From positions 62,001-126,000 of the forward strand of contig JAMLHC010000006.1 of the NCBI GenBank assembly GCA_023957335.1: a stretch of DNA of 64,000 nt, read 5' to 3'. Of this stretch, positions 25,725 through 49,228 are shown piece by piece. Both the position numbers and the translations under genes were made by a program. Within the stretch, counting starts at the first letter, position 1; every line of letters begins with the position of its first letter. The notes beneath the pieces were generated by a model. That model ran no database searches and was not told the origin of the DNA. It saw nothing but the letters and a program-made list of their open reading frames with translations. This DNA comes from Bacteroidota bacterium. Lineage in GTDB: Bacteria; Bacteroidota; Bacteroidia; NS11-12g; UBA955.

Positions 25725-25725
25725 A

Positions 25726-26712: not shown

Positions 26713-26717
26713 ACAAA

Positions 26718-26725: not shown

Positions 26726-26747
26726 GGATAAAGAAGATTATTCAAAT

Positions 26748-26761
26748 ATGATTTTTGTCAT
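26748..26761. promoter_or_regulatory. CRP/FNR-type operator upstream of moaA (ATGAT-TTTT-GTCAT)
   Basis: It has the TGA-N6-TCA core and is nearly identical to the bcrC box (ATGAC-TTTT-GTCAT). It lies between moaA and the divergent sulfatase gene. Spacing to the -7-like element points to moaA as the target. Confidence 0.6.
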
Positions 26762-26794
26762 AAATTGATAAAATAAAGCGTCATGCTTCTGTTA

Positions 26795-26802
26795 TACATT
26801 TG
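26795..26802 (+). promoter_or_regulatory. -7 element TACATTTG for the sulfatase gene
   Basis: An exact TAnnTTTG match 20 bp before the ATG at 26822. It lies downstream of an in-frame ATG at 26783, which argues that the later ATG is the true start. Confidence 0.6.
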
Positions 26803-26821
26803 CATTTCTCAAACTATCAGG

Positions 26822-28750: not shown

Positions 28751-28799
28751 TAATGGCAGTTGCTCACTACGCACCAGCCGTTTATTATTCAAAGTGCTA

Positions 28800-29939: not shown

Positions 29940-29974
29940 GGGTTTTTCTGTTGCATCATACAGTTAACAACTAC

Positions 29975-32517: not shown

Positions 32518-32603
32518 AAGCAAGGGTTATTTATTTGTTATATGCAATTGAGAATTCATAATTTGATAAAATTATTTGCCCCTTGGCGCCATAAGCATTA
32601 CCC

Positions 32604-33296
32604 CTAAGCCATCTTACACATAGACTTTTCTATATTGTCCAATTCCGCTGATGTCAGATGCTTATTTGCCAATGGGAACAAAGTATAATCTTCGCGGTAA
32701 ATGTGTAATTTCAGCATTTCTACCAATTCGCGACCATTTTCATAAGCAGTATCAAAAACAAAGTTCCTTGAATCTATATCATTCAATCGAGTGGCAACAC
32801 CTAACAGATTAAAGGTCAACGCTCCGAGCTGAATAAACTTAATATGGTCATCTTCCATTACATCAATTGCAGTTTTGGGGTTGGCACCTATACTATGTTC
32901 GCCCACCTCTATTAATCTTTGATGCAAAAACGGGAATAAAGCTTTTTCCTCTTTTTGGTTGTGAGGCAAGAGTTTATCATCAAAGAAATTAAAAAATTCT
33001 TTAAAAGTGTCATTGATAAATGTGTCAAGTTTATAGCCATTCTTCTTGAATTGTACCAAGGCTTGTTCAAAACGAGTTATCTTTTCCAAAGCCATTTGAT
33101 GCTCATTCATCAAGATTTGAAGTGCCATTGCAAATTCTTTGAAATTAAGATTGTCAGACACCGGTAATTCGTATGCTGAAGGAGGCTCCATTGGTGTAAG
33201 TTCCTCTTGTCCCAACTCCTTTTCCACATTGCGTTTGAGCGGATCTAATTCGTTGAGTGCTTGTAAATCCAGTCCGTTAGTCTTATGTTGTGTCAT
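32604..33296 (-). CDS. Hemerythrin-domain protein
   Basis: 230 residues. The first ~50 are hydrophilic. Then comes a four-helix bundle with the expected iron ligands: NEHQMALEKI, LLPHNQKEEKALFPFLHQR, MEDDHIKFIQ and KLHIYREDYTLFPLANKH. Related proteins bind a di-iron centre and handle oxygen or nitric oxide. Located in the nitrate operon between narI and narK, it may scavenge NO made during nitrate respiration. This role is inferred from position. Confidence 0.85.
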   Translation of the reverse strand: MTQHKTNGLDLQALNELDPLKRNVEKELGQEELTPMEPPSAYELPVSDNLNFKEFAMALQILMNEHQMALEKITRFEQALVQFKKNGYKLDTFINDTFKEFFNFFDDKLLPHNQKEEKALFPFLHQRLIEVGEHSIGANPKTAIDVMEDDHIKFIQLGALTFNLLGVATRLNDIDSRNFVFDTAYENGRELVEMLKLHIYREDYTLFPLANKHLTSAELDNIEKSMCKMA

Positions 33297-33316
33297 CTTT
33301 TGTTAAATGATTTTTT

Positions 33317-33628
33317 TCAAGCGGTATATGTCAATGCAAAATATATCCCTATCAACACAATGAGGAAGAAGAGAAAGCTGACTATTGTTCGATTCTTATG
33401 CAAACACTTGGGAATAGCTCCAAACCAATCAGGTTCTTGTCCAAACCCTCTCATCACCTGCACTGATTGATTGATGACAAAAATTCCATAAACAATAAAA
33501 ATCAACCCTAATCCAATACCTATGTATATTAAAGTCGATTCCATTTTGCTGATTGCTTGAGAGGTTTGAGCAAACGCAATCCCTGTATTCACAAGCAAAC
33601 ATAGAATCAAAGCATAGAGGGCTTTCAT
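33317..33628 (-). CDS. Small membrane protein of unknown function in the nar operon
   Basis: 103 residues from ATG 33628, which places a clean signal peptide (MKALYALILCLL...GIAFAQ) at the N-terminus; another ATG at 33667 would add a hydrophilic leader. After the signal peptide there are two hydrophobic helices (residues ~33-53 and ~80-100) separated by a loop GFGQEPDWFGAIPKCLHKN. I do not recognise a family. It sits between narI and the hemerythrin gene with short gaps. It may be an accessory subunit of the nitrate respiratory complex or a partner of the hemerythrin. Confidence 0.6.
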   Translation of the reverse strand: MKALYALILCLLVNTGIAFAQTSQAISKMESTLIYIGIGLGLIFIVYGIFVINQSVQVMRGFGQEPDWFGAIPKCLHKNRTIVSFLFFLIVLIGIYFALTYTA

Positions 33629-33688
33629 TCTTGTTACTGCTTTTAATTCAAAGTTTAGTATTTTCATTTGGTTCAAAGTTTAGTGACA

Positions 33689-34414
33689 TCAATTGTTATT
33701 AGATTTCTTGCCGAAAGAGTGTGCCCGCGAAGTGCGAATTGCTTTTCTGTTCCAATTCCAAATTACTTGCTGATAGTTTCTCCAGAGGTAATCCAGAGGA
33801 TATACCAAGAAGTGCATAAATCTAGTGAATGGAATAAAGGCAATCAGCGAGAAAGCTGACACAACGTGAATTTTGAGAGACCATGAGTTCACACTTGCAA
33901 TGGCATCAATCTGAGGATCAAATACAAAAACAGAGCGCAAATAAGGAGTAAGAAAAGCAGCAAACCATGAGGAACCCCATCGGTTGTGATAGGCTACCAA
34001 CAATCCTGAAATGATTTGAACAAGCAGAATGACAAACACTATTACATCCATTTTGCTGGTTACTATTTGGATTCTACGGTTAGTAAGACGTCTTTGTACC
34101 AACAAAATCACACCCACAAAGGCGCTCAAACCGAAAGAGAATGCGGTTATTTCAAGTATCAACAATCGGACGGGCTCTCCATTCCATGCCAAAACTGCTC
34201 TTGGAAACAAAAAAGCAATCAAGTGCCCGAAAAATAAAATGAAAAGTCCCCAGTGAAACGGTTGACTTCCCCAAAACAGCCTTTTGCCTTCCAGAAACTG
34301 AGATGAAATGGAAGAAACTGAAAACCCTCTGCTTTTATAACGGTATATAGAACCGATGATAAATATCGCAAGCGATACATAAGGCAGAACAGCAAATAAT
34401 AGATAGTTTATCAT
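33689..34414 (-). CDS. narI: Respiratory nitrate reductase gamma subunit (cytochrome b, NarI)
   Basis: 241 residues, five transmembrane helices. Heme b ligands are visible as His in SQPFHWG and FFGHLIAF in the second helix region, and KIHVVSAF and FTRFMHFLVYP in the last helix. It takes electrons from quinol and passes them through NarH to NarG. It lies 2 bp downstream of narJ. Length and topology match E. coli NarI (225). Confidence 0.92.
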   Translation of the reverse strand: MINYLLFAVLPYVSLAIFIIGSIYRYKSRGFSVSSISSQFLEGKRLFWGSQPFHWGLFILFFGHLIAFLFPRAVLAWNGEPVRLLILEITAFSFGLSAFVGVILLVQRRLTNRRIQIVTSKMDVIVFVILLVQIISGLLVAYHNRWGSSWFAAFLTPYLRSVFVFDPQIDAIASVNSWSLKIHVVSAFSLIAFIPFTRFMHFLVYPLDYLWRNYQQVIWNWNRKAIRTSRAHSFGKKSNNN

Positions 34415-34416
34415 AG

Positions 34417-35139
34417 CTAATCTTGTTTATAGTGATTATTACTTTTATTTATTTCAAAAACTTGATTGACACCCATATTCACACTGCTTTTATTAAAAAA
34501 AGATTTGTGATGTTGTTCATCAATAACAGGGTCGAGGGCGGGTGCAAAACTTATATTTTCAAAATCTTTCTCTAAGATTTGCAACAAAGCAGACAGCGCA
34601 TGTTTATATACATTTCCCGCATATAACTCTTCTTGAATGATTGCATAATGACGGTTTTTGAGAATTTTCAGTTTAATATCCATACGTGTCGGCTCAAACT
34701 CTTCCAACATCTTGCGCACACCCGGTATCAATATTTTTATTGCTAATTCATCAATAATTTTAGACTCAAGTGCTTTATCAAAAAATGTCAGCATATTGCT
34801 CAGATTGTCCGGCAAATCAGTGCCGCAGTCATTTCCGATTTTGTCTTGCTCCTGCTTCATATTTACCAAAAAGACACCTCTTTTGTAGTCTTCGCCAAAA
34901 ATCACATAGCCCAAGTCTAAATAACACACAGCTTGTACATCAAAAGTCTTGGTGTATAATTCTCGGAATGTATCTGCATTGTGAGAGTTGATATAATCAA
35001 CAAAAATCTGCATTTCTTTGGCAGCTTCCGGATAAGACTCTATCATCAGTTGGCTGCATTGATTGACAACCAATGGGAATTTCGCATCGGGATATCTGAA
35101 CAAATCAGCCAAAACTTTATAATGAGCAAATTTTCTCAT
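34417..35139 (-). CDS. narJ: Nitrate reductase assembly chaperone NarJ
   Basis: 240 residues from ATG 35139, placed 1 bp after the narH stop; a longer frame would overlap narH. All-helical TorD/NarJ fold with YKVLADLFRYPD at the start, FRELYTKTFDVQAVCYLDLGYVIFG and FFDKALESKI, the usual NarJ landmarks. NarJ loads the Mo cofactor into NarG before membrane docking. Confidence 0.88.
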   Translation of the reverse strand: MRKFAHYKVLADLFRYPDAKFPLVVNQCSQLMIESYPEAAKEMQIFVDYINSHNADTFRELYTKTFDVQAVCYLDLGYVIFGEDYKRGVFLVNMKQEQDKIGNDCGTDLPDNLSNMLTFFDKALESKIIDELAIKILIPGVRKMLEEFEPTRMDIKLKILKNRHYAIIQEELYAGNVYKHALSALLQILEKDFENISFAPALDPVIDEQHHKSFFNKSSVNMGVNQVFEINKSNNHYKQD

Positions 35140-35140
35140 A

Positions 35141-36631
35141 TTACAATCCTCTAACAGGTTTTTCCTTAAATCCAAATCCGGTATTACCTTTCACATCCGC
35201 TGTATTTTCGAGCATTTCAATAGACTCTTCACGATGAGCAGGCGGAATAACAAAACGCTCATCAAATGTAGCCAAAGCCGTAAGCCTAAATATAGCGTCT
35301 GCCATGTCAGCATCTACTTGTGCTTCATTCATAGCAACAGAAATTTCTTCTTTTGCAAGATCGCCTGTTGTTACTCCTCGTCTGTGCAATCTCACAGCCA
35401 TCAGACGTTTCATAACTTCCACAATCTTATCGGTATTGCCGGCAGAAAACAAAGAAGCAAGATACTTCATGGGCAAACGGTTTTTCTCAACTCCATTCCA
35501 AAGCGATTTACTTGTTGAATCGTATTTTCCATCTTGTACAGTTGCCATTGTAGGTAACAAAGCAGGCACATAAAACAAGTTAGGAAGAGTTCTAAACTCA
35601 GGGTGCAACGGTAAAGCGAGTTTCCATACTTTCACAAATTTATAAACCGGAGATTTTTGGGCAGCATCAATTGTAGAATCAGCAATTCCATTCAACTTAG
35701 CTTGTTTAATAACTTCCGGGTCAAATGGGTCTAAATAGATATCCAAATGATTGTCAACAAGCTTATCATCAGCAGAAGCTGCTACATTTTCAATTTTGTC
35801 AGCATCATAGAGCATCACACCTAAATAACGGATTCTGCCAACGCAAGAGTGAAAACATGCCGGTGCTTGTCCGGACTCAAGTCTGGGATAACACAAAACA
35901 CATTTTTCAGATTTACCGGTGTTCCAATTATAATAGCTCTTTTTGTAAGGGCAAGCGGTAACACACATTCTCCAAGCGCGACAACGCTCTTGATTGATAA
36001 GTACAACTCCATCCTCTCCTCTTTTATAGATTGCGCCTGAGGGACAAGCAGCAACACACGCAGGATTCAGACAGTGGTTACAAATTCTGGGTAAATAATG
36101 GAAAGTCATACGCTCTAACTGGAACATGGCTTCTTGTTCAGCAGGTGTTAATTTATCCAGATTGACATCTTGTCGTGCATAATCCGGAGAACCACCCATA
36201 TCATCATCCCAATTTGGACCGGCTTTTACATCAATGTGTTCACCTGTAACCAGAGAAACAGGGCGAGCAGTAGGCTGGTCATCACCTTCGGGAGCAGTAA
36301 ACAAATCTTGATACTTGTATGTCCATGGTTCATAATAATCATCAAGCACGGGTAAATGTGGGTTATGAAAAATATTTTTCAATCCTTTGAACTTCCCTGC
36401 GCCTTTTAGTGAAACCGTATCTCCGTTTTTCTCCCAACCGCCTTTGTATATATCCTGATCTTCCCACTTAGTAGGGTAACCCGTACCCGGTTTTGTTTCC
36501 ACATTATTCCACCACATATACTCTGCACCCTTGCGATCAGTCCAGATATTTTTGCAAGCTATTGAACATGTATGACATCCGATACATTTATCGAGATGAA
36601 AAACCATAGAAACCTGAGATCTAATATCCAT
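35141..36631 (-). CDS. narH: Respiratory nitrate reductase beta subunit (NarH), four Fe-S clusters
   Basis: 496 residues. Four cluster motifs: CIGCHTCSIACKN, ICNHCLNPACVAACPSG, CRAWRMCVTACPYKK (Trp replaces one Cys, so a [3Fe-4S] centre as in E. coli NarH) and KCVLCYPRLESGQAPACFHSCVG. It wires NarI hemes to the NarG active site on the cytoplasmic side. It lies 24 bp downstream of narG. Confidence 0.95.
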   Translation of the reverse strand: MDIRSQVSMVFHLDKCIGCHTCSIACKNIWTDRKGAEYMWWNNVETKPGTGYPTKWEDQDIYKGGWEKNGDTVSLKGAGKFKGLKNIFHNPHLPVLDDYYEPWTYKYQDLFTAPEGDDQPTARPVSLVTGEHIDVKAGPNWDDDMGGSPDYARQDVNLDKLTPAEQEAMFQLERMTFHYLPRICNHCLNPACVAACPSGAIYKRGEDGVVLINQERCRAWRMCVTACPYKKSYYNWNTGKSEKCVLCYPRLESGQAPACFHSCVGRIRYLGVMLYDADKIENVAASADDKLVDNHLDIYLDPFDPEVIKQAKLNGIADSTIDAAQKSPVYKFVKVWKLALPLHPEFRTLPNLFYVPALLPTMATVQDGKYDSTSKSLWNGVEKNRLPMKYLASLFSAGNTDKIVEVMKRLMAVRLHRRGVTTGDLAKEEISVAMNEAQVDADMADAIFRLTALATFDERFVIPPAHREESIEMLENTADVKGNTGFGFKEKPVRGL

Positions 36632-36655
36632 AATTTAGTTTTTTATGTTTAATAA

Positions 36656-39600
36656 TTAAAATTCTACTCTTTCCATTTTCCTAACCAATACGTGTGTATC
36701 TCTGTTAGCTCCCACGGGTCCCCAATAATTGAAGTGAAATGAAAACTGCCCGTACCCCCCCGTCATCAAGTTGGGTTTTAAGTGAACTCTGGTAAAGCTA
36801 TTGTGCCCCCCTGCCCTTCTTCCGCCTCGCTCCTGAGATTTAGGTACAGAATAAGTTCTTTCGGGTGAGTGGTACACAATACAAACACCTTTTGGAATCC
36901 TTGCACTCACACACGCTCTCGTACAATAAACCCCGTGGTCATTATATACCTCAACCCAATCATTGTCTTTAATACCAAGTTCTGCTGCATCTGCTTCACT
37001 AATCCAGCAAGGTTCGATACCGCGAGAAAGTGTCAACATCCTCAATGTATCACCATAGGTGGAATGAATATGCCATTTACCATGAGGAGTAAGCACATTC
37101 AGCATTTTTGCTTTGCCGTCATTGACAGTTTTACGCAAATCTCCATATACTTGAGGAGTTGGCGAAGGTTTATAGGTTGCCAAGTTCTCACCAAATTCGA
37201 GATATCCGTCATGGTCTAAATAAAAATGCTGACGACCGGACAAAGTCCTCCAAGGTACAAGCCTGTCCACGTTATAAGTGTAAGCACAATATGCTCTGCC
37301 GTTATTCATCAAGCCTGACCAAAGAGGTGAATTATTGTAACGCCTGGGCTGAGCTTGTAAATCTTTGTAATCAATCTTTACATCTTTGCTTCCTTCGCCC
37401 AAATCAACCAAATCCAAACCGGTTTTCTTCTCCATGTTTTCATAGGCTCTTACGGTAAGTTTACCATTGGTGAGAGTTGACAATGTAAGTACTGCATTAA
37501 CGGCTTCTACATCTTCTTTGATAGATGGATATTCCACTCCGTTTACTTTCTGAACATGGCGTTTATCCAAAATCATTTCATTGTAAACGTCTTCTGCCAT
37601 ATAGGACACCCCATGCGCTCCCAACGGTTTGGAATGCATATTAGGTCCGAGCGAAATATATTTATTATAAATCTGAGTGTAATCTCGGTCAATAAACACA
37701 AGCTTATGCATTGATTTACCGGGCTCGGGCTCACATTCTCCTTTAGCCCAATCCAACATACGCGGTTGCGTAATTTCATCTGCTGAGTCATGTGACAAAG
37801 GGGCATTTACAACGTCTTTAACAGGCTCGGGCAAATGCGTGCAAGCAAGTTCACTCACTTTCTTTGCTAAAGCTTGAAAAATCTGCCAGTCTGATTTAGA
37901 TTCCCAAACGGGTGCCACAGCAGCGGAAAGCGGGTGTATGAAAGAGTGTAAGTCGGTGGAATTAATATCTGCTTTTTCATACCAAGAAGCGGTTGCCAGC
38001 ACAATATCAGAATACAAAGCAGATGTATCCATACGAAAGTTTATATCCACTATCAAATCCATTTTGCCTTTGGGAGCTTCACGCCATATTAGTTCATGCA
38101 CGTGTGGTTGAGCCACTTCATCAGCAATTTTGTTATTGTGTGTACCTAAATAGTGGTCGAGCATGTATTCATGCCCTTTGGCACTAGACATCAGCGCGTT
38201 TCCACGCCAAATAAACCAATTTCTCGGGAAATTGATTTCATCATCAGGGTCTGCCACTGAGTGCATTAATTCTTTTGATTTAAGTTTATCTACAATATGC
38301 CTCCTGATGCCATCTTCGTCTTTTGCACCGGCAGCTATAGCGTCATTTATAACATCCTGATTGTTCTTGTTATATTGTGGGAAAAAAGGCATCCAACCGT
38401 TTCGCACCGACATGACAGTCCAGTCCGCAGAGTGCATCTTGCCATATTTACTATCTTTTGGGACTTTATTGTATTCAACTTGATTATTATCATACCTCCA
38501 TTGGTCAGAATTGATATAGTGCCAAATGGGAGCCTGCTGTAACCTGTTTGCAGGAATCCAATCCTTTGCTGACATAATGGTTCCCCAAGAATCTACAGGC
38601 GCCAATTTTTCCTGACCTACATAGTGGTTCATTCCTCCTCCGTTTACACCATTACATCCGGTAAGCATCTGAGCCATAATTGCTGCACGATACATCAAAT
38701 TTCCATGAAACCAATGGTTGATAGCTGCACCCACAATTACCATACATTTTCCATTGGTAATTTCAGCTGTATCAGCCCATTCGTGAGCAAACTTAATAAC
38801 GGTGTCTCTACCAACTCCTGTGAATATTTCCTGCCAAGCGGGTGTGTATGCTTGTTTGTCATCGTTGTAGTCAGTCGGATATTCGCCTTGCAATCCTCTG
38901 CCAACACCATATTGCCCCATGGTAAGGTCATAGACTGTGGTTACGGGCACTTTTGTACCATCGATTGTTTCAATTAATTTAACCGGCACACCACGCACAG
39001 CCGTTTTGTCAAGACCAAACTCCAAAAATTCAACATTATAAACTTCATCGTTTTTGTTGAGCAATGTCAGCATGGGTTCATAAGGTTTGTTATCCAAGAA
39101 ATCTTCATATTTAAGATTCCAATTTCCTTTTTTCTCTTCCGCCCAGCGGCTTCCCATGGATCCTTTAGGACAAACAAGATTGCCGGACTTCTCATCAATA
39201 TTGAGAAATTGCCAATCACCATTCTCGACATCCTTATATTTCTTTACTCTGTTCGCTCTCAGCATTCTGCCGGGCTTATAGCAATCACCTGATTTATCAA
39301 GTTCTACCAAAAAAGGACAGTCGGTATAACGTTTTGCATAATCAATAAAATAAGGTACTTGTCTGTCCGCATGGTATTCTTTCAGGATTACATGTGTTAC
39401 TCCCATCCAAAATGCACCGTCAGAGCCTGCATGGCACGGTATCCATTGGTCTGCATGTTTTGCCACCATACTGAAATCGGGCGACATCACTACCGTCTTA
39501 GTCCCATTGTGTTTGGACTCGGAGAAGAAGTGAATATCCGGAGTTCTTGTCATACCTAAATTGGCACCCATGGATACGCAGAATTTGGAGTTGTACCAGT

Positions 39601-40279
39601 CAGCACTTTCGCAAACGTCTGTTTGCTCTCCCCAAACTTCCGGAAATGCAGGAGGCAAATCACAATACCAATCATAGAAACTGAGATTTACACCTCCCAT
39701 TAATTGAAGATACCGTGCACCTGAAGCATAGCTAAGCATGGACATAGCCGGTATTGGCGAAAAACCAATAATTCTGTCCGGTCCATATTTTTTAATGGTA
39801 TAAATATTTGCAGCCGCAATGAGTTCGAGCACTTCATCCCATTTGGCACGTCTGAAACCGCCTTTGCCTCTTGCACGCTGATATCTTTTTCTTTTCTCAG
39901 GGCTATTTTGCAAGTTTGCCCAAGCTTTAACTGGGTCTCCATTAGCATTTTTCTTTTCTTCATTAAACAAATCCATTAAAGCACCGCGCATCAAAGGGTA
40001 TTTTACTCTGATTGGGCTATACAGATACCATGAATAAGAGATTCCTCGCTGACATCCACGCGGTTCGTATGGTGGCAAAGAGTTTTCAAGCAAGGGATAA
40101 TCAAGTGCTTGGGTCTCCCAAACCACAATCCCGTCCTTTACGTGAATATTCCATGAACATCCACCTGTACAGTTCACTCCATGAGTGCTTCGCACCACCT
40201 TATCGTATTGCCAGCGGTTACGATAAAACTCCTCCCATTTTCTGGTTTGTGGAGATATAATGTCTTCTATCCAGCTCAT
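36656..40279 (-). CDS. narG: Respiratory nitrate reductase alpha subunit (NarG), Mo-bisMGD enzyme
   Basis: 1207 residues. The FS0 cluster ligands follow H33-x3-C37-x3-C41-x34-C76, exactly the NarG spacing. [14 protein letters not shown] contains the Asp that ligates molybdenum in NarG. No twin-arginine signal is present, so the site faces the cytoplasm, as in classical NarGHI and unlike periplasmic nitrite oxidoreductases. C-terminal cofactor-binding features include YHSPERTY and the [14 protein letters not shown] stretch. It requires bis-MGD from the moa/mob operon to the left. A cytochrome c gene lies 19 bp upstream. Confidence 0.95.
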
Positions 40280-40298
40280 AGTTTTTGTTTTTTATTGA

Positions 40299-41195
40299 TT
40301 AAATTGATTCGATTTGTCTGTTAAAAATTTCTCTTTTGACGGTGTATTTTTTCCTACCATACCATAAAATCCAATAAATAAGAAGCAGTCCGATTATGCC
40401 ACCGCTACCTCCGTACAATAAAGGATTGAAAGAAGATGCAACCTGATTTGCTTTGTCTTTATCAACTTTGTTTAAAAATGCCACTATATTTCCGATTTCT
40501 TCATCTGTCATCGGATGGTCTTTATAAGATTCTGTCATGGCAGGGAATGGAGGCGCACCCAGAATTCCTTTCAAACCGGCATCTCCTCCCATTCTGCTAA
40601 ACACATCGGTCAAATCTTTTGCTAACAGACCACCTTCAAGCACACCTTTATAATTAATATTATGACATGAAATACATGCAGGTCCGTGGTTTGACAACCT
40701 TTGAATTCCTTCAAAAATAAATTTGCCTTTTTGTATATCCGCCTCGGTTGCGTTATCGGATTCATTTGAAGCTACACTCGCAATTTGAGCATCAGCACCG
40801 GTGTATCCGCCTTTACTTGCTATGAAAGTAAAAATAGCTTTGATATCATTATCTGATAATGCTTGATCCGGCATAATCAAACCGCCAAATTCATCTGAAA
40901 TTGCTTTTGCATCCGGATCGCCACTTTTGATTAGTGTTTGAGAAGATTTGGTCCATTTCAGCAACCAATCTGCTGAACGCAAAGCGGTTACTCCTAATAG
41001 GTCTGGACCTACAAGACGTCCCCCTCCTATTTTATGACACGAAGCACAATTTTTAGTAAATATTTCTTCCCCATTTTGTCCAAAACTCACAGTTGAAATG
41101 CTGAGCATCAGGAATGTCAAAACTAACATTATTAATATTTTATGAGACTCAAAAAGGTTCTTTTGTATGGATTGCAAACCGGTTTTCATAAGCAT
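40299..41195 (-). CDS. Membrane-anchored diheme cytochrome c, first gene of nar operon (NarC-like)
   Basis: 298 residues. Signal peptide (SHKILIMLVLTFLMLSIS...FGQ), a first heme motif CASCHK near residue 51 and a second CISCHN near 174, each in a cytochrome c domain, then a C-terminal transmembrane helix (GIIGLLLIYWILWYG) and a basic tail. Thermus and some other lineages place a diheme cytochrome c (NarC) directly ahead of narG, and this has the same position. It may link the nitrate reductase or other periplasmic reductases to the quinol pool. The start is ATG 41195, with a second ATG two codons later. Confidence 0.82.
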   Translation of the reverse strand: MLMKTGLQSIQKNLFESHKILIMLVLTFLMLSISTVSFGQNGEEIFTKNCASCHKIGGGRLVGPDLLGVTALRSADWLLKWTKSSQTLIKSGDPDAKAISDEFGGLIMPDQALSDNDIKAIFTFIASKGGYTGADAQIASVASNESDNATEADIQKGKFIFEGIQRLSNHGPACISCHNINYKGVLEGGLLAKDLTDVFSRMGGDAGLKGILGAPPFPAMTESYKDHPMTDEEIGNIVAFLNKVDKDKANQVASSFNPLLYGGSGGIIGLLLIYWILWYGRKKYTVKREIFNRQIESI

Positions 41196-41474: not shown

Positions 41475-42227
41475 TTATTTTCTGAGCTGTCTTTTTTGAC
41501 TTGAAATAACAACAAGCAAAATAATTGTTCCGAGTGCAGGAATTAAGAGCAAAAACAAACCGAATTTTAATTTTTTCTTCCCTGTAATCGGGTCATAAGA
41601 GAAACAAGATAAAACCGAATTATTATGAGGCAGTGGATAAGAAATAACAAATTCATTATGAATGGATTTGAGCATAACTTCTAATGCTCTGACATCCCTA
41701 ATCCCGATAAGTTTTTTAATAATATAACCGTTGCCATTGATTCCCACCAACAAAGCATCATGTTCATACTGTCTTGTAACACTGTCCCATTGTGAGTGAA
41801 AACCAACCGATTCAATTAACTCATTAATCTGATAAGTCGTACCAAAGACCCATCTTTCATCATCGTTCAGTCCCAAGAGTTGGGCGTAATTGTTCAAATC
41901 AACTTTAGTATCTGCGGTATCAAAGCTGACAACCAAAACTTTGAACTTTAGCTTAGGATTAAGTCTGGTAATATTCTCTTTTAAATTACTCAATAAAGGA
42001 GAGCACACTCCGGTACAGCGTGTAAAAACCAAAGCAAGGATTAGAGGCTCTCTGTTATAGAGATTCGACAGTTTAAGCTCCTCTCCTTGCGTTGTCTGTA
42101 TTTGAATATTTTCTACCTTTGTATAAAGCCTATCTTCTTCCGACAAATTATACTCAGATGTCTGAGCAAATGAGATTCCTAAGTTAAATAGAACTAATGC
42201 GAAGAGGGCGAAAATACTTTTATGCAT
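41475..42227 (-). CDS. SCO1/SenC-family copper chaperone
   Basis: 250 residues from ATG 42227, chosen because it starts a clear signal peptide (MHKSIFALFALVLFNLG...FAQ). It overlaps the end of the subunit I gene by 34 bp; an upstream alternative would lie wholly inside that gene. Thioredoxin-like domain with the copper motif CTGVC (in FTRCTGVCSP) and the downstream His in YEHDALLVG. A C-terminal transmembrane helix (FGLFLLLIPALGTIILLVV) follows. SCO proteins metallate the CuA site of subunit II, and the partner here has a complete CuA motif. Confidence 0.88.
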   Translation of the reverse strand: MHKSIFALFALVLFNLGISFAQTSEYNLSEEDRLYTKVENIQIQTTQGEELKLSNLYNREPLILALVFTRCTGVCSPLLSNLKENITRLNPKLKFKVLVVSFDTADTKVDLNNYAQLLGLNDDERWVFGTTYQINELIESVGFHSQWDSVTRQYEHDALLVGINGNGYIIKKLIGIRDVRALEVMLKSIHNEFVISYPLPHNNSVLSCFSYDPITGKKKLKFGLFLLLIPALGTIILLVVISSQKRQLRK

Positions 42228-43639
42228 TTTTTGAAAATATCTACAAAGATAAGTATCATCCCCAATAGATATATGATTGCAAACCAGGCTGCTGCAGTGG
42301 CGAACAAAGCGGCTCTGGTAAATTCTGCAGGATAAACTGAATATCTTCTGGGAATTGATTCTGCTCCACCACAATAAAACATCAGGACAAAACCAAAGCC
42401 ACCTACAATTAACAAAGTCAATTTGAGTTTTCTCATTGGGTCTGTATGACTACCTGAAAATTCGTTGGCTACCCATGTAAAGAACCCCAAAATAAGCAAC
42501 ACATTACCTAATGCATTATACGTATGGAAGTGAGCAGGCACCCATAGTGTGTTGTGCAAGAAAATATTATTAGAAATAGTTGAGTCAATCAATGCGCCTA
42601 CTCCCCCAATAATCCATCCGGTAATACCAATGAAAAATAGAAGATTTGTAATTGTCCATTTGATTTTGTGCCCATATAACAACACTATTACACTTATGAT
42701 GGTTACAACTGCAGAAGGAATACTTGCAAAATAAGATGCAAACTGCCCAAACATTTGAAGTCCAAGCGGTTGCACAAAATCCATATATAAGTGATGGAAG
42801 TATGCTGTTAACACAAACAACAAAGTAAAATTCCAACCCAAAGAAACATACCAAGTGGTTTTGAACTTAGGACGTCCGCTTATTTCAGGTAACAACTCAT
42901 ACACAATTGCCAACCCAAGATAAAGAGACTCATTGGCAATAGTATGACCGAAGAAATAAATTAAGTTTTTCATTAATAATGGGTCGCTTTTAAATGCACC
43001 ATCAGAATACCATTCTGCGAAAGATAAAATTAGGATTACAACTGCGGTCAACAAACAAAGAACAACGCCTACAAGCGAAATTGCTGAAATCAATACCAAA
43101 GGAGGTGTTTGAACTTCGGGAGTTTGTTTAGAAAGATGTTGCCACGCAAATGTTTCTCTAAGAGAATATTTCTTAAAAATAGCAACTAATAAGCCTATTG
43201 ACCAAACTAACCATCCTACACCCAATACAGTCAAACTCCAAAAAAACAATGGTGTAGCCCAAGACTCCCATTCACCAATGTTCAGAAATGGCAATGGATA
43301 TAAGAAAGTCCATCCGGCATGAAAATGACCGATGAAGGTTGAAATGTAAAACATTATAACTCCAATGATAGTCAAAACAAAAGCAAACTTGCTTAAACCA
43401 GCCCCCACATTTACATAGCGATTAAGCAAATAATGAACTCCGACCATTCCGGCAACAGCCCAAATAGCAATCATAGTCATTCCATGAGTTGTCATTAATC
43501 CATAAAACTTGCCATCATCCATACTGATAACATTTCCCTGATTAAAGCGCATGGTAATACCCAGAATAATAGCGGTAAAGAATAAAAGCAGGATTGTGAT
43601 AATCCAAGTAGATGTGATTCTTTTCAATGATATATTCAT
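42194..43639 (-). CDS. Heme-copper enzyme subunit I lacking the catalytic Tyr: probable nitric oxide reductase of a non-canonical family
   Basis: 481 residues, about 12 helices. Heme and CuB ligands are all present: H52 (THGMTM), H232 (FFGHTIANES), H282/H283 (AYFHHLYMD), H370 and H372 (PAHFHTYN). In oxygen-reducing oxidases the residue four after the first CuB His is the crosslinked Tyr (HPEVY or HPIVY); here it is Asn236, followed by Glu237. Canonical cNOR/qNOR have Glu at that place (HLWVEG), so this matches neither group. It resembles the alternative NOR families with a CuA subunit. Downstream is SCO1; upstream are the CuA subunit and an NsrR-like regulator. NO reduction is inferred; oxygen reduction cannot be excluded. 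Confidence 0.75.
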   Translation of the reverse strand: MNISLKRITSTWIITILLLFFTAIILGITMRFNQGNVISMDDGKFYGLMTTHGMTMIAIWAVAGMVGVHYLLNRYVNVGAGLSKFAFVLTIIGVIMFYISTFIGHFHAGWTFLYPLPFLNIGEWESWATPLFFWSLTVLGVGWLVWSIGLLVAIFKKYSLRETFAWQHLSKQTPEVQTPPLVLISAISLVGVVLCLLTAVVILILSFAEWYSDGAFKSDPLLMKNLIYFFGHTIANESLYLGLAIVYELLPEISGRPKFKTTWYVSLGWNFTLLFVLTAYFHHLYMDFVQPLGLQMFGQFASYFASIPSAVVTIISVIVLLYGHKIKWTITNLLFFIGITGWIIGGVGALIDSTISNNIFLHNTLWVPAHFHTYNALGNVLLILGFFTWVANEFSGSHTDPMRKLKLTLLIVGGFGFVLMFYCGGAESIPRRYSVYPAEFTRAALFATAAAWFAIIYLLGMILIFVDIFKKCIKVFSPSSH

Positions 43640-43655: not shown

Positions 43656-44192
43656 TTATTTTACGATAAATTCTCCTCTCATTATCTGATGCCCTACTCC
43701 ACAAAACTCAGTACATAATACACTATAGGTACCAGGTTCATTGAACACCCAACGCAAACGATTCACATATCCCGGCATCGCTTGTGATTGAGTGATTAAC
43801 TTTGCTTTATCATTATAGATAGCAAAACCGTGCGTAACATCAATACTGGTTACTCTGAATTCCACCATTTTACCTGCCGGAATCTCAACTGAATAGTTGT
43901 CATTCTCATCACTTATACCAAAAGCAAACTTGCCGGATGACACATTGACCACCATTGCGGGAGAATCATTTTTGTATAAAAAATAAGGTGATCTGGGGAT
44001 TGTGATTGACATCAAAATCAGCAGTACACCACCCCAAAGTAATAAGAAGTAAAACCTCATTCTTAAGGGATTCTTAATTCCTTCGCCTTCCTCATCACCT
44101 TTCATTGTGCTCCGATATATCATATAAGAAATCAATGAAATAGCCACGGCACAGATAAGAAATAACGCTAAAACGAACTCTTGTCCTTTCAT
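43656..44192 (-). CDS. CuA-containing subunit II of the heme-copper enzyme
   Basis: 178 residues. Two N-terminal transmembrane helices, then a cupredoxin domain with the complete CuA ligand set: H121 (DVTHGFAIYN), then C160, C164, H168 and M171 in CTEFCGVGHQIM. Electrons would therefore come from a soluble or anchored cytochrome c or cupredoxin, not from quinol. It lies 16 bp upstream of subunit I and is the first gene of the three-gene operon, which has its own promoter and operator. Confidence 0.85.
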   Translation of the reverse strand: MKGQEFVLALFLICAVAISLISYMIYRSTMKGDEEGEGIKNPLRMRFYFLLLWGGVLLILMSITIPRSPYFLYKNDSPAMVVNVSSGKFAFGISDENDNYSVEIPAGKMVEFRVTSIDVTHGFAIYNDKAKLITQSQAMPGYVNRLRWVFNEPGTYSVLCTEFCGVGHQIMRGEFIVK

Positions 44193-44273: not shown

Positions 44274-44299
44274 AATAAAGGACAAGGTTGTCCTTTATT
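44274..44299. promoter_or_regulatory. 26-bp perfect inverted repeat, probable Rrf2/NsrR-like operator
   Basis: Two perfect 12-bp arms (AATAAAGGACAA / TTGTCCTTTATT) separated by GG. It overlaps the -7 to -33 zone of the NOR-like promoter and is 75 bp from the 3' end of the Rrf2-type regulator gene. A degenerate copy of the same length precedes the regulator's own operon at 49275-49300. Confidence 0.75.
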
Positions 44300-44374: not shown

Positions 44375-44806
44375 TCACCCTTTGAGAAATGCCTTTCCAA
44401 CGTTCAAATCCCTATATAAATCACCAATCGTTTTTAACTTACAAAAACGCTTAAACGACTCTCTCACAGGCTTAAAATCTTTATGAATAGGGCAAGGATG
44501 CTGATCACTGCATGTACTAAGACCCAAACCACATCTCTCAAAATAATCATCCCCTTCTACTGCTTTAACAATAAGGATTAGAGGTGCACTTTCTTGAGCT
44601 TTGGTTATAAAAAATCCACCGTTAGGACCTTTGATACTGCTAATGATAGCAAGCTTAGTTAACTTTTGTAAAACCTTTCCAATGGTGTGCTCGCTTTCAT
44701 TGATTTGAGCTGCAATCTCTTTAATCCCGGACTTTTTTTTATCCGGAAATTTGGAAGCGATATAAGTTACCGCTTTTATAGCGGTTTGGCAAGTGATACT
44801 CAACAT
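44375..44806 (-). CDS. Rrf2-family regulator, NsrR/IscR-like with three cysteines
   Basis: 143 residues. The winged helix (IKEIAAQINESEHTIGKVLQKLTK and GPNGGFFI) is typical of Rrf2. The cluster loop is CGLGLSTCSDQHPCPIH, i.e. C-x6-C-x5-C, close to the C-x5-C-x5-C of NsrR and IscR. NsrR senses NO with its Fe-S cluster and represses NO-detoxification genes. It is the last gene of the RIC/DUF2249 operon and lies next to the NOR-like operon. NO sensing is inferred from neighbours; an IscR role is possible but no isc genes are near. Confidence 0.85.
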   Translation of the reverse strand: MLSITCQTAIKAVTYIASKFPDKKKSGIKEIAAQINESEHTIGKVLQKLTKLAIISSIKGPNGGFFITKAQESAPLILIVKAVEGDDYFERCGLGLSTCSDQHPCPIHKDFKPVRESFKRFCKLKTIGDLYRDLNVGKAFLKG

Positions 44807-44809: not shown

Positions 44810-45133
44810 TTACATTCCCAAATATTGCTTCCCTTGTTCCGATACAGCGTCATAACTCCAAGGCGGATCAAAAGTTAACTTAACTTCTATTTGATAGCCC
44901 GGAAAAGACGCTTCCAACGAAGAAGTTGTATCGCCCACAATAGCATCGCCCATGGGGCAGAACTCGGTTGTCAGAGTCATTGTACACAAGACTTTTTTCT
45001 TTTCTTCGTCAAAATAAAGGTCATAGACAAGCCCAAGATCTACAATATTTAATCCTATTTCAGGATCTATCACATATTGAAGACCTGCCAAAGCGATAGT
45101 ACTCTTTATTTCGTTGTTATTAGATACATTCAT
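44810..45133 (-). CDS. MIP18/SufT-like (DUF59) protein
   Basis: 107 residues. DUF59 signature VIDPEIGLNIVDLGLVYDL, then TLTTEFCPMGDAI with the conserved Cys, and a C-terminal FDPPWSYDAVSEQGK. Members assist Fe-S cluster loading (SufT, MIP18) or belong to PaaD-like assembly. It lies between the NnrS-like gene (4-bp overlap) and the Rrf2 gene (3-bp gap). In an NO-response operon, Fe-S repair is a sensible role. Confidence 0.85.
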   Translation of the reverse strand: MNVSNNNEIKSTIALAGLQYVIDPEIGLNIVDLGLVYDLYFDEEKKKVLCTMTLTTEFCPMGDAIVGDTTSSLEASFPGYQIEVKLTFDPPWSYDAVSEQGKQYLGM

Positions 45134-46425
45134 AATTGAATTGGTTTGTGATTGATTACTTTAAAAACATTGATATTATACAATATTGCTGTTATCAGCA
45201 ACAAAAATGACCCAAATTTGATTAAAATCAATAGCCCTGACAAGATTCCGGATGCAAATACGAACAAGCCTGTCAGATAGCACACCCCCATCACATTAAA
45301 CACCTTGTCATTAAACAAGTCTTTGGGGTTTGGCGTTTTGCCTAATGCAGAACGTTTGCGGTATGCTTTATTCCACGCAATGAATGGCAATGTTTTGAAT
45401 GTCATCCCCAAAATAATGGCTGTCATCCAACCAAAGAATATCATAAAGCCGTATGTCATCACAACATTCAGGGGTATTTCAGAAGAAGTGGCGGAACTCA
45501 GCAACACAATGACCAAAAGGACGATTGGAATCAAAAACATGATTGCCGCTAATATTGCCAACTGTGTCTGATAATCCACTCTTTTTCTCAACCGTCCTTT
45601 GTATGCTTTGATACAAAAATAAATGAACATAGAACACCCCATTAACACCAATATAAATGGCAGAAATAACAGCCATTTTTGTTCATAAAAGAAAAGGAAT
45701 AAAACTGTGTAAAGCAATATTCCCAAATTCACCAAAAAATTGATAATTCTCAAGAGTTTTTTGTTGGTGTATTTAGAAATCATAAACATAGGTATCAAAC
45801 GAGAGCCCACGCCCATTACCAATAACAAGAACCAACCCACGATACCCAGGTGGGCATGCAAAGGGAGATAGTGTGTTGCGTCAAAGGGTAAAAAATCAAG
45901 ACTGAAATCAAAAACCAATGTTACACCTAATCCTACGGTAATCAACAACCATACAATTGAAGAAAAGATAAAAAGTGTATGAACATTTTTTTTCTTGGAA
46001 TTAAGAATACTCTTAAGAACATTTACAAAATATGCCATTAAGCCCAAAAGTATTAAGCTTCCTCCCACTTCTGCCGTCAAACCGAATTCATGCATATAGA
46101 AACTATATACAAGAATCGGAATGCCTATACCGGCAAAAACAAAAGAGGTATTTGCGAGTTTATTACTATAAAGTTCTCCTTCTATAAGCACCGGCACCAA
46201 CTGATGACTAGCACCCAGAATAATCATGGTTCCCCAACCTAATGCCATAGAATGGGTAATAGCTAATATATTAAACTGAAAATAGTGTCCGAAAAAGTAA
46301 TTTCCCGACAACAACAGCAATACAGTAGCAATTAAAAACCACACGGCTGCATAAGCATAAAAAGGAATAACAACCTTATAGGAAGTAGTTTTTACAAGAT
46401 TTGTATCAAAAGGAGAAGCGAACAT
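45130..46425 (-). CDS. Twelve-helix NnrS-like / heme-copper-oxidase-I-like membrane protein
   Basis: 431 residues, about twelve transmembrane helices. Histidine-bearing helices ITHSMALGWGTMIILGASHQLVPV and LHAHLGIVGWFLLLVMGVGSRLIPMF look like the H-rich helices of NnrS and of oxidase subunit I remnants. The CuB HH pair and the C-terminal HxH of true oxidases are not visible. NnrS proteins accompany NO metabolism and relieve NO stress. It overlaps the DUF59 gene and abuts the DUF1858 gene. Family placement is by pattern only. Confidence 0.6.
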   Translation of the reverse strand: MFASPFDTNLVKTTSYKVVIPFYAYAAVWFLIATVLLLLSGNYFFGHYFQFNILAITHSMALGWGTMIILGASHQLVPVLIEGELYSNKLANTSFVFAGIGIPILVYSFYMHEFGLTAEVGGSLILLGLMAYFVNVLKSILNSKKKNVHTLFIFSSIVWLLITVGLGVTLVFDFSLDFLPFDATHYLPLHAHLGIVGWFLLLVMGVGSRLIPMFMISKYTNKKLLRIINFLVNLGILLYTVLFLFFYEQKWLLFLPFILVLMGCSMFIYFCIKAYKGRLRKRVDYQTQLAILAAIMFLIPIVLLVIVLLSSATSSEIPLNVVMTYGFMIFFGWMTAIILGMTFKTLPFIAWNKAYRKRSALGKTPNPKDLFNDKVFNVMGVCYLTGLFVFASGILSGLLILIKFGSFLLLITAILYNINVFKVINHKPIQL

Positions 46426-46427: not shown

Positions 46428-47234
46428 TTACTTCTTAAATATTAAAATTCGCACATCACCATCGGTAATTTCATTAATTCTATAGTCCAACCCTCTATCT
46501 TGCAACTCAGGAAGCAGAAACACCGGAATTCGTTTGTGATACACATAAACCGCTCTGTCAGATTGGAGTTTGTCGCATGCTTCGAGCACCATCATCATAG
46601 GTAAAGGGGGTTCCATTTTTTCGACTCTGACTTCATCCAATTTGCCTTCGAACTTAGCTAACATTTCCTGCCAACCTGCTGCATCATTTTTGATTTCGGC
46701 TTTAATTTCACCAGCACCGGAAGTGTTGTAAAGATAGGTGTGTACAAGATTTGAATTAACAATTTCAGTATAAGCAACGAATCCTCTTTTTTCAAGAATC
46801 ATAATTACCGGTGTAGGTTCAAATGTATTGATGATTTTGAGTGCTTGTTGGGCATTCAGCTTGTTTACATTCATCATAATAGTATTAAGCGGGTCGCCAC
46901 CGGAGTCAAGGATAGGTCTAACATCTAATTCCACTACATTTTCAGGTTTCAGATTCTTAACAAATTCCGGCATTGGGCTGGTACTGCCTTCGTGCTCTTC
47001 TTTATAGTTGCTGTCAATCTCAAAACCCAATGGTTTCAATTTTGCAAAAAAATCATCTACTTTCACTCCCCCTACTTTGCTTGCCATACTGATGGAAGTC
47101 CTTGCAGCCATGAGCTTTCTCAAAAGCGGGTTTCGGAGTTTTGTAAATTTGGGTGAAATACTAATAATAGCTTCCAAAGCATCGGGATGAGCTTTGAGGA
47201 TTTGCGAAATCTTAGTGCCTGAATTTATTAACAT
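46428..47234 (-). CDS. DUF1858-DUF2249 protein of the NO-response operon
   Basis: 268 residues. The first ~75 resemble DUF1858 (KISQILKAHPDALEAIISISPKF and PLLRKLMAARTSISMASKVGG). A TusA/SirA-like DUF2249 domain follows (VVELDVRPILDSGGDPLNTIM...EPTPVIMILEKRGF), and then a second, weaker domain ending in ITDGDVRILIFKK. Such proteins often accompany RIC-type repair proteins and NOR genes. Biochemical function is unknown. The gene overlaps the upstream RIC gene by 7 bp and is 2 bp from the NnrS-like gene. Confidence 0.75.
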   Translation of the reverse strand: MLINSGTKISQILKAHPDALEAIISISPKFTKLRNPLLRKLMAARTSISMASKVGGVKVDDFFAKLKPLGFEIDSNYKEEHEGSTSPMPEFVKNLKPENVVELDVRPILDSGGDPLNTIMMNVNKLNAQQALKIINTFEPTPVIMILEKRGFVAYTEIVNSNLVHTYLYNTSGAGEIKAEIKNDAAGWQEMLAKFEGKLDEVRVEKMEPPLPMMMVLEACDKLQSDRAVYVYHKRIPVFLLPELQDRGLDYRINEITDGDVRILIFKK

Positions 47235-49228
47235 GATGAATGATGGTTAGCACCTTCTAATTCTATTGCCTTAGGGAACAAGATATTGTTTTCCAAATGT
47301 GCGTGAACAAACATATCTGCTTCCAAATCCTGCAAGAGTTTATAAACAAGTTCGTAGCTCGCACACGAATCATTAGGCAAGGTGTAGTTATTAGTCAACT
47401 TGCGCAAATTTAGCATATAATCTTTGTATGTATCATGTTCCATTTCGAGCATATTAATTGGCTCGGCAATGGATTTGAACGCAGGGTTTTCAACGGTTTT
47501 AGCTTGTGCTTTTGCACTTACTATTTGTTTGACAAAAGGAAACAGAATAGTTTCTTCTTTTTGCAAATGAGCCAAAAGTGCATTGGTAAATTTATCAATA
47601 TTGGCATATATCTCTTCCAATTCGGGGTGCGCCTTCACATGTTGGTTCAACACATTTTTGGAGGCTGTGCGCAAGTCGGGCACAATTTGCCTTATAAAAG
47701 AATGATGAGTATTTACAACATAATCAGACAGAAAATCTAAGTTCCAATCATTATAGGGCAAGGGGCGGGGTTGATTGCCTTGACCTTTTTCTATTTGTTG
47801 GAGTTCCTGCTCTACAAGAGTTACATCAACTCCAAGGGAATCACATGCTTCTTTGATAGTTTTCTTACCTGAGAAGCCATAGTCGAGTTTGTACTTGGCA
47901 AATACAGCCGTTTTTCTAAAATCCTTAGCCGCAATTTCACCCAGAGTTTCATCTTTTTCACCTGAATTGCGTTTGGTAATTTTTACTCTCCACCACTTTG
48001 GACCTTGCTCCAAGTATTCCCAAGAAAAAATATTTCCACGTTCTGCCATCAACTGATAATACAAGGGTTTGGGATCGTGGTCATTGTACAAGGTGAGCCA
48101 TCTTCCTCCTTCAAGTGCATCAAATTGCTTAAAAATAGTTGGGTGTTTGTGGGCAGGTGGTAACTGGGTAACATCTAATTTATTTTCATCATCTTCACTT
48201 TGAGGCGTTGATGCTGAGGCTTGTTGCTTGGCATTTCTACCAATCTTCACTCTCCACCATTGCGGACCTTTTTCCAAATATTCCCATGAAAATTCATCCC
48301 CTCGTGTTTGTTCTAATTGATAATACAAAGGCACGGGGTCATGGTCATTTTTCAGAATAAAAAACTCACCGACAGCCAGACTGTCAATCTTTTCAAAGAT
48401 TTTAGCATGTTTCACCGGAGGAGGTAGTTGCGTAGCGTCCAAAACTCCTTCTTCTTCGCTATGAGCAGATTCTCCGCCATGAAGCATTTTTTTTGCAATT
48501 CTGATAATCCACCAATCGGGTCCTGATTGCAAATAATCCCAAGTAAAAATATCGCCTCTGTTCTGATGTAATTGATGATACAAGGGCTTTGGGTCATGGT
48601 CATTTTTCAGAATGAAACTCTCCCCTTCTCGATGGTCGTCAAAGAAAGCGAAAATACTTGCGTGCTTGTATTGCGGGTCTATCAAGGTTGCGTTCAAAAT
48701 ATATTCACCATTGGCGGCTTTGCTCAATGCAGGATGCCCTTGCTTTGGAGCTTCTTTGGTAATCCTGATTCTCCACCATTGCGGACCTTGCTCAAGGTAT
48801 TCCCAAGAAAACACATTTCCTCGTGTTTGTTGCAATTGATAATGTAGGGGTTTGGGGTCATGGTCGTTTTGTAGGATAAAGCTCTCACCTTCTCTCAAAT
48901 TATCAAATTGCGCAAAAATGGTGGCATGCTTGTATTGTGGTTCAATCAAAGTTGCATTGAGCACCACCTCATCAGCAGCTGCTTGTTTGGTCTTGTGTTT
49001 GCCAATTCTGATTTTCCATACTGCCGGACCTTCTTCCAAGTATTCCCATGTGAAGGTTTCACCATTATCCGCTTTTAACTGATAATAAAGTGGTTTGGGG
49101 TCATGATCATTTTGAAGGATAAAACTTTCCCCTTCTTTTAAATCATTAAAGTATTGAAACACTGTGGAGTGTTTTAGTCTTGGCTCAAGTTCAGACACCA
49201 CCAATATTTTGTTTGCAGAATTTTCCAT
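47228..49228 (-). CDS. RIC/YtfE-type di-iron repair protein with five N-terminal DUF2249 domains
   Basis: 666 residues. Five tandem ~85-residue DUF2249 units occupy residues ~10-420, each with the core NDHDPxPLxxQL and a WEYLExGPxWWRIRI-like strand. Residues ~435-480 are the ScdA_N/DUF542 domain, but the Cys-Cys of YtfE (DFCCGGK) reads DYGFSGK here. Residues ~497-660 are a hemerythrin-like di-iron domain with THHSF, LLAHLQKEETILFPF, EMEHDTYKDY and VHAHLENNILFP. YtfE/RIC repairs Fe-S proteins damaged by NO. This is first in an operon ending with the Rrf2 regulator. The repeat number and lost cysteines are unusual. Confidence 0.88.
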   Translation of the reverse strand: MENSANKILVVSELEPRLKHSTVFQYFNDLKEGESFILQNDHDPKPLYYQLKADNGETFTWEYLEEGPAVWKIRIGKHKTKQAAADEVVLNATLIEPQYKHATIFAQFDNLREGESFILQNDHDPKPLHYQLQQTRGNVFSWEYLEQGPQWWRIRITKEAPKQGHPALSKAANGEYILNATLIDPQYKHASIFAFFDDHREGESFILKNDHDPKPLYHQLHQNRGDIFTWDYLQSGPDWWIIRIAKKMLHGGESAHSEEEGVLDATQLPPPVKHAKIFEKIDSLAVGEFFILKNDHDPVPLYYQLEQTRGDEFSWEYLEKGPQWWRVKIGRNAKQQASASTPQSEDDENKLDVTQLPPAHKHPTIFKQFDALEGGRWLTLYNDHDPKPLYYQLMAERGNIFSWEYLEQGPKWWRVKITKRNSGEKDETLGEIAAKDFRKTAVFAKYKLDYGFSGKKTIKEACDSLGVDVTLVEQELQQIEKGQGNQPRPLPYNDWNLDFLSDYVVNTHHSFIRQIVPDLRTASKNVLNQHVKAHPELEEIYANIDKFTNALLAHLQKEETILFPFVKQIVSAKAQAKTVENPAFKSIAEPINMLEMEHDTYKDYMLNLRKLTNNYTLPNDSCASYELVYKLLQDLEADMFVHAHLENNILFPKAIELEGANHHSSC
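47969..49207 (-). repeat. Five tandem DUF2249-coding repeats inside the RIC-like gene
   Basis: Each unit is about 250-265 bp. The core NDHDP lies near residues 40, 121, 209, 294 and 382. Units 2 and 3 are most alike around EPQYKHA/DPQYKHA, and units 4 and 5 share QLPP linkers, suggesting stepwise duplication. Linkers of 10-30 charged, Ala/Ser-rich residues separate units. Confidence 0.9.

Follow-up and report, generated by a model that had tools for sequence, protein, structure and literature searches.

A five-copy DUF2249 (DrpA) array joined to a RIC protein without a Cys-Cys pair beside nitrate and nitric oxide respiration genes in a Bacteroidota bacterium

The array-RIC gene and its conservation

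The window analysed here, a 64,000-nucleotide stretch of a Bacteroidota contig (JAMLHC010000006.1), carries on its reverse strand a gene for a 666-aa protein in which five tandem DUF2249 domains precede ScdA_N and hemerythrin domains, the two domains of the YtfE/ScdA/DnrN (RIC) family of di-iron proteins. DUF2249 is the domain of DrpA, a protein described in Thermus. This architecture, an NDHDP core in each DUF2249 copy and a ScdA_N domain without the Cys-Cys pair had been proposed by a sequence-only reading of the window, and all three were borne out by Pfam searches and alignments. The amplified DrpA module on a RIC lacking the pair is real and conserved, and belongs to known families. The gene and its domains are:

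47228..49228 (-), DUF2249x5 - ScdA_N - hemerythrin protein (P0001), 666 aa, ATG start (open reading frame, ORF; Pfam)
48998..49201 (-), DUF2249 copy 1, residues 10-77 (Pfam)
48755..48961 (-), DUF2249 copy 2, residues 90-158 (Pfam)
48491..48697 (-), DUF2249 copy 3, residues 178-246 (Pfam)
48236..48442 (-), DUF2249 copy 4, residues 263-331 (Pfam)
47972..48178 (-), DUF2249 copy 5, residues 351-419, nearest to the domain of ordinary single-copy DUF2249-RICs (repeat tree)
47792..47953 (-), ScdA_N, residues 426-479, with Gly-Phe at 451-452 (47873-47878), the Cys-Cys position (Pfam, alignment)
47267..47716 (-), hemerythrin-like RIC domain, residues 505-654, with the invariant His/Glu of relatives retained (Pfam, alignment)

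PF10006 (DUF2249) matched five stretches of the protein (E 1.6e-121), all five copies scoring 71-94 bits against a gathering cut-off of 29.5, and the matches to ScdA_N (E 1.6e-12) and Hemerythrin (E 2.4e-17) were both above their cut-offs. The N-terminal array is 424 aa long; its copies are spaced by 264, 255, 264 and 243 nt, a period of 81-88 aa for a domain of about 70 aa, and NDHDP and the conserved histidine are present in 5/5 copies. The only cysteines are at positions 462, 622 and 666, residues 1-461 being free of them, and inspection by eye, with no predictor run, revealed no obvious signal peptide.

An assembly artefact, raised as a possible source of the repeats, is ruled out. Among 108 genomes of the order, 15 have ScdA_N, and the sole other matching genome of the genus, G064, encodes a five-copy protein with Gly-Phe, the same as the window gene (regions L027/L079). 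Because a second genome has the same five-copy gene, the repeats are genuine; at the DNA level, the five 171-nt copies of the window are each just 62-73% identical to the reference copy. A tree of 89 repeats pairs every window copy with the same-numbered copy of G064, hence the five-copy array predates the split of the two species; the next neighbours of copy 5 are single copies of other RICs, so copy 5 is probably the ancestral repeat. Identity between the two species is 95.6-98.6% for copies 1-3, 85-87% for copies 4-5, 79% for the hemerythrin domain, 76% for ScdA_N and 44-83% for the linkers, and copies 1-3 are the most constrained region of the protein in this two-species comparison. The ratio of nonsynonymous to synonymous substitution rates (dN/dS) comes to about 0.01 in copies 1 and 2, against 0.065 in the hemerythrin domain, with synonymous divergence saturated or nearly so.

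At the Cys-Cys position, the ScdA_N loop reads DYGFSGKK (Gly451-Phe452), versus F-C-C in 84/84 relatives bearing the pair. Of the residues shared by at least 90% of these 84 relatives, the genus has lost F450-C451-C452 and G447, together with K525, V529, G531, E550 and G602 (the last five 92-100% conserved in relatives), and E634 is replaced by Asp. The invariant His/Glu residues are all kept in the genus (H508, H509, H530, H554, E558, E559, H598, H642, E646). Among them, H509, H554, E558, H598, H642 and E646, each present in 84/84 Cys-Cys rows, occupy positions that in YtfE hold the di-iron ligands. YtfE aligns with the full-length structure model (predicted template modelling score 0.53; inter-copy linkers of low confidence) over 215 residues spanning ScdA_N and hemerythrin (Z 26.8, root-mean-square deviation (rmsd) 2.0 A, 31% identity), and from this match the RIC fold is predicted to be intact. 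The window protein shares with YtfE, ScdA and DnrN (TIGR03652) the two domains, the fold and the invariant His/Glu, but differs from them in lacking Cys-Cys, in carrying the array and in scoring 185 bits against the RIC equivalog model of NCBIfam, below the cut-off of 204.7.

The His/Asp motif of the repeats proved conserved across homologs, so the lack of conservation that would have counted against the sequence-only reading is dismissed: 176/176 repeats have N382, H384, D385, P386, P388, W403, G409 and P410 (window numbering), and 174/176 have H362 and P358. The exception for H362 is L231, in which both DUF2249 copies carry Phe at this otherwise conserved position; this two-copy DUF2249-RIC (L231, 6037-7335) has FAWKG in place of FCC in ScdA_N. 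The single-repeat model (predicted local distance difference test 96.8) has the order beta-alpha-beta-alpha-beta-beta with a short first strand, and its best structural neighbours are TusA/SirA-like (best Foldseek E 0.019; Z 8.2 for TsuB and 7.9 for TusA, rmsd 2.2-2.3 over 67-68 residues; Z 7.6-8.2 for the group). Since Alba-like chains are nearly as good (Z 7.5), the proposed relation to TusA leans also on Pfam TusA matches to the DUF2249 domains of the DrpB type, which reach 39.1 bits in G181 (cut-off 28.6), with Thermus DrpB at 23.9 bits, below the cut-off. In hhalign comparisons the DrpB-type domains gave partial links (Prob 51-55 to TusA and 77-95 to DrpA-type domains); the direct comparison of DrpA-type DUF2249 with TusA gave Prob 2.5, and a profile search of PDB sequences with the repeat alignment returned nothing meaningful. 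TusA/SirA-like sulfur carriers, which narrowly rank first in the fold comparison, have an active-site Cys, whereas the window array has no cysteine, and a TusA-like persulfide carrier is therefore rejected for this protein, the first Cys of which is residue 462. Replacement of the TusA cysteine by a histidine was also dropped, as this cysteine falls at a Pro when DrpB-type domains are aligned by profile. No canonical TusA was found in the window's genome.

Copy number and the Cys-Cys pair among relatives

A search for other multi-DUF2249 RICs showed them to be common in Bacteroidota, a point absent from the sequence-only reading, as are the retention of Cys-Cys in most long arrays, the second RIC of the genome and the Thermus parallel described below. 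The idea that the architecture is unique is rejected, since RICs with 1-5 DUF2249 copies occur across the phylum. DUF2249 is present in 58/395 sampled genomes of the phylum and 61/395 of the class (overlapping samples). In 69 regions, comprising the window's and 68 others selected for holding DUF2249 or RIC genes, 66 hemerythrin ORFs were found, 63 of them with DUF2249: five copies in two proteins, four in one, three in seven, two in one and one in 52. The single-copy Bacteroidota proteins (e.g. L083, L094, L095) share with the window protein the operon and the last DUF2249 copy; they have one copy and, in 57/59 cases, Cys-Cys, in contrast to five copies and no Cys-Cys in the window.

A scan of named genomes covered the best 80 loci and is not a census. 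Among these loci, five-copy DUF2249-RICs with Cys-Cys were found in Candidatus Parvibacillus calidus (L203) and in the Chitinophagales metagenome-assembled genome ACE_NR_BACT5 (L221). These two resemble the window protein in their five DUF2249 copies, ScdA_N, hemerythrin and drp-type neighbours, but they keep Cys-Cys and are placed elsewhere in the RIC tree, from which a separate origin of their arrays is probable. Stand-alone DUF2249 arrays are found among the same loci, with three copies in several phyla and with four in haloarchaea and one Chloroflexi record.

The Cys-Cys pair was tabulated for 102 of 108 RIC proteins (6 near-identical ones removed), 97 of which have at least one DUF2249; absence was scored where the stretch from the last repeat to the hemerythrin domain contains no CC string. 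The pair is kept in 57/59 proteins with one copy, 4/11 with two, 14/17 with three, 5/6 with four and 2/4 with five, and in three of the five RICs without DUF2249. It is missing from 13/38 multi-copy and 2/59 single-copy proteins (Fisher p 6e-5, descent ignored). A tree built from the hemerythrin part (97 rows; 20/94 inner branches well supported) requires at least seven changes between single and multiple copies and at least five Cys-Cys losses, so that loss is recurrent among DUF2249-RICs, most of which keep the pair. Because this tree gives just 2-3 supported independent contrasts, no association between the array and Cys-Cys loss is claimed, and a long array does not entail the loss, as 7/10 four- or five-copy proteins keep the pair. 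A separate Cys-Cys RIC gene is present in 5/5 Cys-less genomes tested (the window's, G064, G388, G530 and G738).

Several other DUF2249 arrangements were observed. Immediately upstream of the single-copy DUF2249-RIC in L136, L137, L138, L139 and L083 there are one or two further genes, each for a separate DUF2249 protein of about 80-127 aa; this is the same array split over genes. The window's genome has a second DUF2249 protein (L009 7375-8130, G000:C4) with three copies, of which the second has no NDHDP, and three-copy proteins like it occur in several phyla among the best 80 loci. Actinomycete proteins of about 400-440 aa (L239-L241, L243, L246, L247, L249, L250, L252) have two C-terminal DUF2249 copies, and the N-terminal part of L239 has a hemerythrin-like appearance by eye. 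Four-copy DUF2249 proteins without RIC (L222, L226, L232, L234 and L238, from the Chloroflexi record and haloarchaea) have a low-scoring first copy, and no clear gene context emerged for four-copy proteins from their flanking ORFs (10 haloarchaeal and 4 Chloroflexi ORFs scanned). One RIC relative without Cys-Cys (L024, G037:C14) has an in-frame TAG within ScdA_N and is probably a broken gene.

The operon and its Thermus counterpart

Five nearly contiguous genes on the same strand encode the array-RIC, DrpB-like, NnrS-like, DUF59 and Rrf2 proteins. Past Rrf2, the order continues with a CuA subunit, a COX1-family subunit, SCO, cytochrome c and narGHJI:

46428..47234 (-), DrpB-like protein (P0002), 268 aa, DUF1858 + 2x DUF2249, 7-nt overlap with the array gene (Pfam, comparison)
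45130..46425 (-), NnrS-like / heme-copper-oxidase-like membrane protein, 431 aa (comparison with the Thermus drp-region protein)
44810..45133 (-), DUF59 (FeS_assembly_P) iron-sulfur assembly protein, 107 aa (Pfam)
44375..44806 (-), Rrf2-family regulator, 143 aa (Pfam)
43656..44192 (-), COX2-like subunit, CuA motif CTEFCGVGHQIM (Pfam, motif)
42194..43639 (-), COX1-family subunit, NOR-like (resembling nitric oxide reductase, NOR), HTIAN (Pfam, motif)
41475..42374 (-), SCO1/SenC-like protein (Pfam)
33689..40279 (-), narG, narH, narJ, narI respiratory nitrate reductase operon

The 431-aa membrane protein had no match to the NnrS family, and "NnrS-like" is a working label. The COX1-family subunit has HTIAN, with Asn at the position of the active-site Tyr, versus HPEVY in the genome's own oxidase (L319); according to Table A4 of PMC8756737 (source available in part), this type of residue code fits sNOR or CuA-NOR. 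Within 8 kb around 63 DUF2249-RIC genes, we found DrpB at 54, the NnrS-like gene at 54, DUF59 at 53, Rrf2 at 44 and a NOR-like COX1 at 3. DUF2249 is presumably the same family as COG4309. The occurrence of COG4309 beside norB and within NsrR/NnrR regulons was noted earlier (PMC1274295, available in part).

In Thermus thermophilus SG0.5JP17-16, the plasmid-borne order is narGHJI - MFS - drpA - drpB - hypothetical - protoglobin - NnrS-like - DUF59. Thermus DrpA is 60% identical to array copy 5, DrpB 35% to its window counterpart P0002, the 383-aa drp-region protein 27% to the window NnrS-like protein (E 9e-24) and DUF59 41% to the window DUF59. Judged by gene content and sequence similarity, the window operon is the counterpart of the drp region in the Thermus nar cluster. 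In both, the drp genes lie near narGHJI together with NnrS-like and DUF59 genes; of the two Thermus proteins (Chahlafi et al. 2018, PMC6282519, here and below from the available part of that report), DrpA has one DUF2249, and DrpB has DUF1858 and two DUF2249 domains, as does P0002. Thermus DrpA differs from its window counterpart in being a separate, single-copy protein of 72 aa that is reported to be periplasmic, whereas the window module is five-fold and fused to RIC. The same report mentions DUF2249 with hemerythrin domains in passing; in the open PMC literature we found no prior description of a DUF2249-array RIC without Cys-Cys, nor a paper on tandem or fused YtfE in Bacteroidetes denitrification.

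Some further features of the surroundings were recorded. A nitrate-respiration island (21872-41195) holds ThiF, MoeA and MoaA-type (molybdenum cofactor), TauE, MFS, SLAC1, narIJHG and cytochrome c genes, and a stand-alone hemerythrin protein (32604-33296). PF02613 (Nitrate_red_del) had no match in the genome; the narJ gene scores by NCBIfam, under the cut-off. Three cysteines lie close together in the Rrf2 protein, RCGLGLSTCSDQHPCP (spacing by eye), a pattern to be expected of an iron-sulfur sensing regulator of the NsrR/IscR type. A perfect palindrome, TAAAGGACAAGGTTGTCCTTTA (44276-44297), separates the Rrf2 gene from the NOR-like genes; it is kept in G064 except for the spacer, is the only exact copy in either genome, and is a candidate Rrf2 operator or terminator.

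Possible roles of the array-RIC protein

The reading that we tentatively prefer, with a probability of roughly 0.45, is that an amplified DrpA module has been joined to a RIC di-iron protein and serves in docking or maturation in the nitrate and nitric oxide (NO) respiration island. In the presence of nitrate, nitrite or NO, the DUF2249 domains would serve as docking or ligand modules that, together with DrpB, tether RIC to DUF59 or the Nar/NOR apparatus; RIC would then handle iron or NO in the maturation or repair of the iron centres of the respiratory enzymes, and five copies may provide higher avidity or hold more clients. This role is suggested by the fusion itself, by DUF59, by a haloarchaeal DUF2249 protein of a nar operon described as a P-loop iron-sulfur carrier (PMC11218638, available in part) and by the low Thermus Nar activity despite the presence of NarG (PMC6282519): in the drpAB double mutant NarG is made, with activity about 1/10 (90 vs 900 U), an effect that according to the authors might arise, among other levels, at maturation. 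The Cys-Cys pair of YtfE is assigned to electron delivery (PMC9052748, available in part). Lacking it, the window protein would have no vicinal-thiol re-reduction of its di-iron site, which probably depends on another reductant or is used stoichiometrically, while the separate Cys-Cys RIC of the genome may retain the thiol-driven activity. Since the repeats belong to a single RIC-fused polypeptide without a recognisable signal peptide, the fusion also implies that the DrpA domains would act in the cytoplasm in this lineage, against the published model of DrpA as a periplasmic nitrate sensor.

Several points weigh against the docking and maturation role. Thermus DrpA was periplasmic by fractionation (PMC6282519), a poor fit with a cytoplasmic RIC fusion. 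Nar, NOR or NosZ genes occur at 12/97 loci only, most loci spanning about 6-8 kb on each side, and the pair is kept in 25/38 multi-copy proteins, so the array does not require its loss. Given an artificial donor, a Cys-free ScdA showed no less activity (PMC12412097, available in part), and therefore the enzyme could remain functional after the loss. The open PMC literature yielded no measurements of binding, expression or activity for any DUF2249-RIC.

Two alternatives, both unlikely and about equally so, assign the array a ligand. In the first, which follows the proposal of the sequence-only reading, every DUF2249 pocket would be a site for NO, nitrite or a metal ion, from which the array loads the adjoining di-iron site. 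The invariance of N-x-H-D-P-x-P, His and Trp in essentially all repeats and the highest conservation in copies 1-3 argue for such a store, any metal or NO site of which would be His/Asp based because residues 1-461 lack cysteine; yet the inter-copy linkers are of low confidence in the structure model, and DUF2249 is known as a lone domain, as triples and within DrpB, with no di-iron part in the same protein. In the second, the array would sense N-oxides in a multivalent manner by titrating DrpB and, through DrpB, Rrf2 or further regulators, with the RIC part as a head that reports NO or regulates and not as an enzyme. Nitrate-dependent nar expression in Thermus requires both DrpA and DrpB (PMC6282519); the adjacency with DrpB, and often Rrf2, is conserved, and the electron-relay cysteines are gone while the ligand positions are retained. 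Against this, the available part of the Thermus report finds no DNA-binding motif in DrpB and does not show nitrate binding by DrpA, and the purifying selection on RIC (dN/dS 0.065) is compatible with either role.

Somewhat less probable still is that DUF2249 is a TusA-like domain with the Cys exchanged for a His and Asn-Asp-His-Asp site, acting as a cytoplasmic reversible binder of N-oxides or of iron-nitrosyl or iron species, the array delivering five ligands or clients to one di-iron centre. If true, DrpA-RIC would be a new type of N-oxide-gated machine for iron-centre maturation, and the periplasmic nitrate-sensor model of DrpA would be overturned.

It is improbable that the RIC part is degenerating, with the Cys-Cys RIC elsewhere doing the work and the array alone mattering. 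The long stem that leads to the genus in the hemerythrin tree (0.82 changes per column), the alteration of Cys-Cys together with the five residues 92-100% conserved in relatives (K525, V529, G531, E550, G602), the second, Cys-Cys RIC in the genome and the shortened ScdA_N of the L080 protein would all agree with decay, but the invariant His/Glu are all retained, dN/dS between the two species is 0.065, and the predicted fold matches YtfE over 215 residues. Neutral drift in the copy number of a domain that duplicates readily, without any gain in function, could account for related proteins ranging from 1 to 5 copies and for at least seven single/multiple changes on the tree, but is very hard to reconcile with the copy-by-copy orthology across the genus and the very low dN/dS in the extra copies.

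DUF2249 (DrpA) recurs beside the nitrate and NO respiration genes of bacteria and archaea, where it raises a question of ligand and mechanism. The operon described here connects the nar regulators of Thermus with an operon that is widespread in Bacteroidota, and the natural RIC fusions, with 1-5 copies and with or without the Cys-Cys relay, form a ready comparative series. Through these fusions, the ligand of DUF2249, the action of DrpA in the cytoplasm versus the periplasm and the need of RIC for vicinal cysteines in vivo become testable, and two poorly understood protein families are joined into one testable machine.

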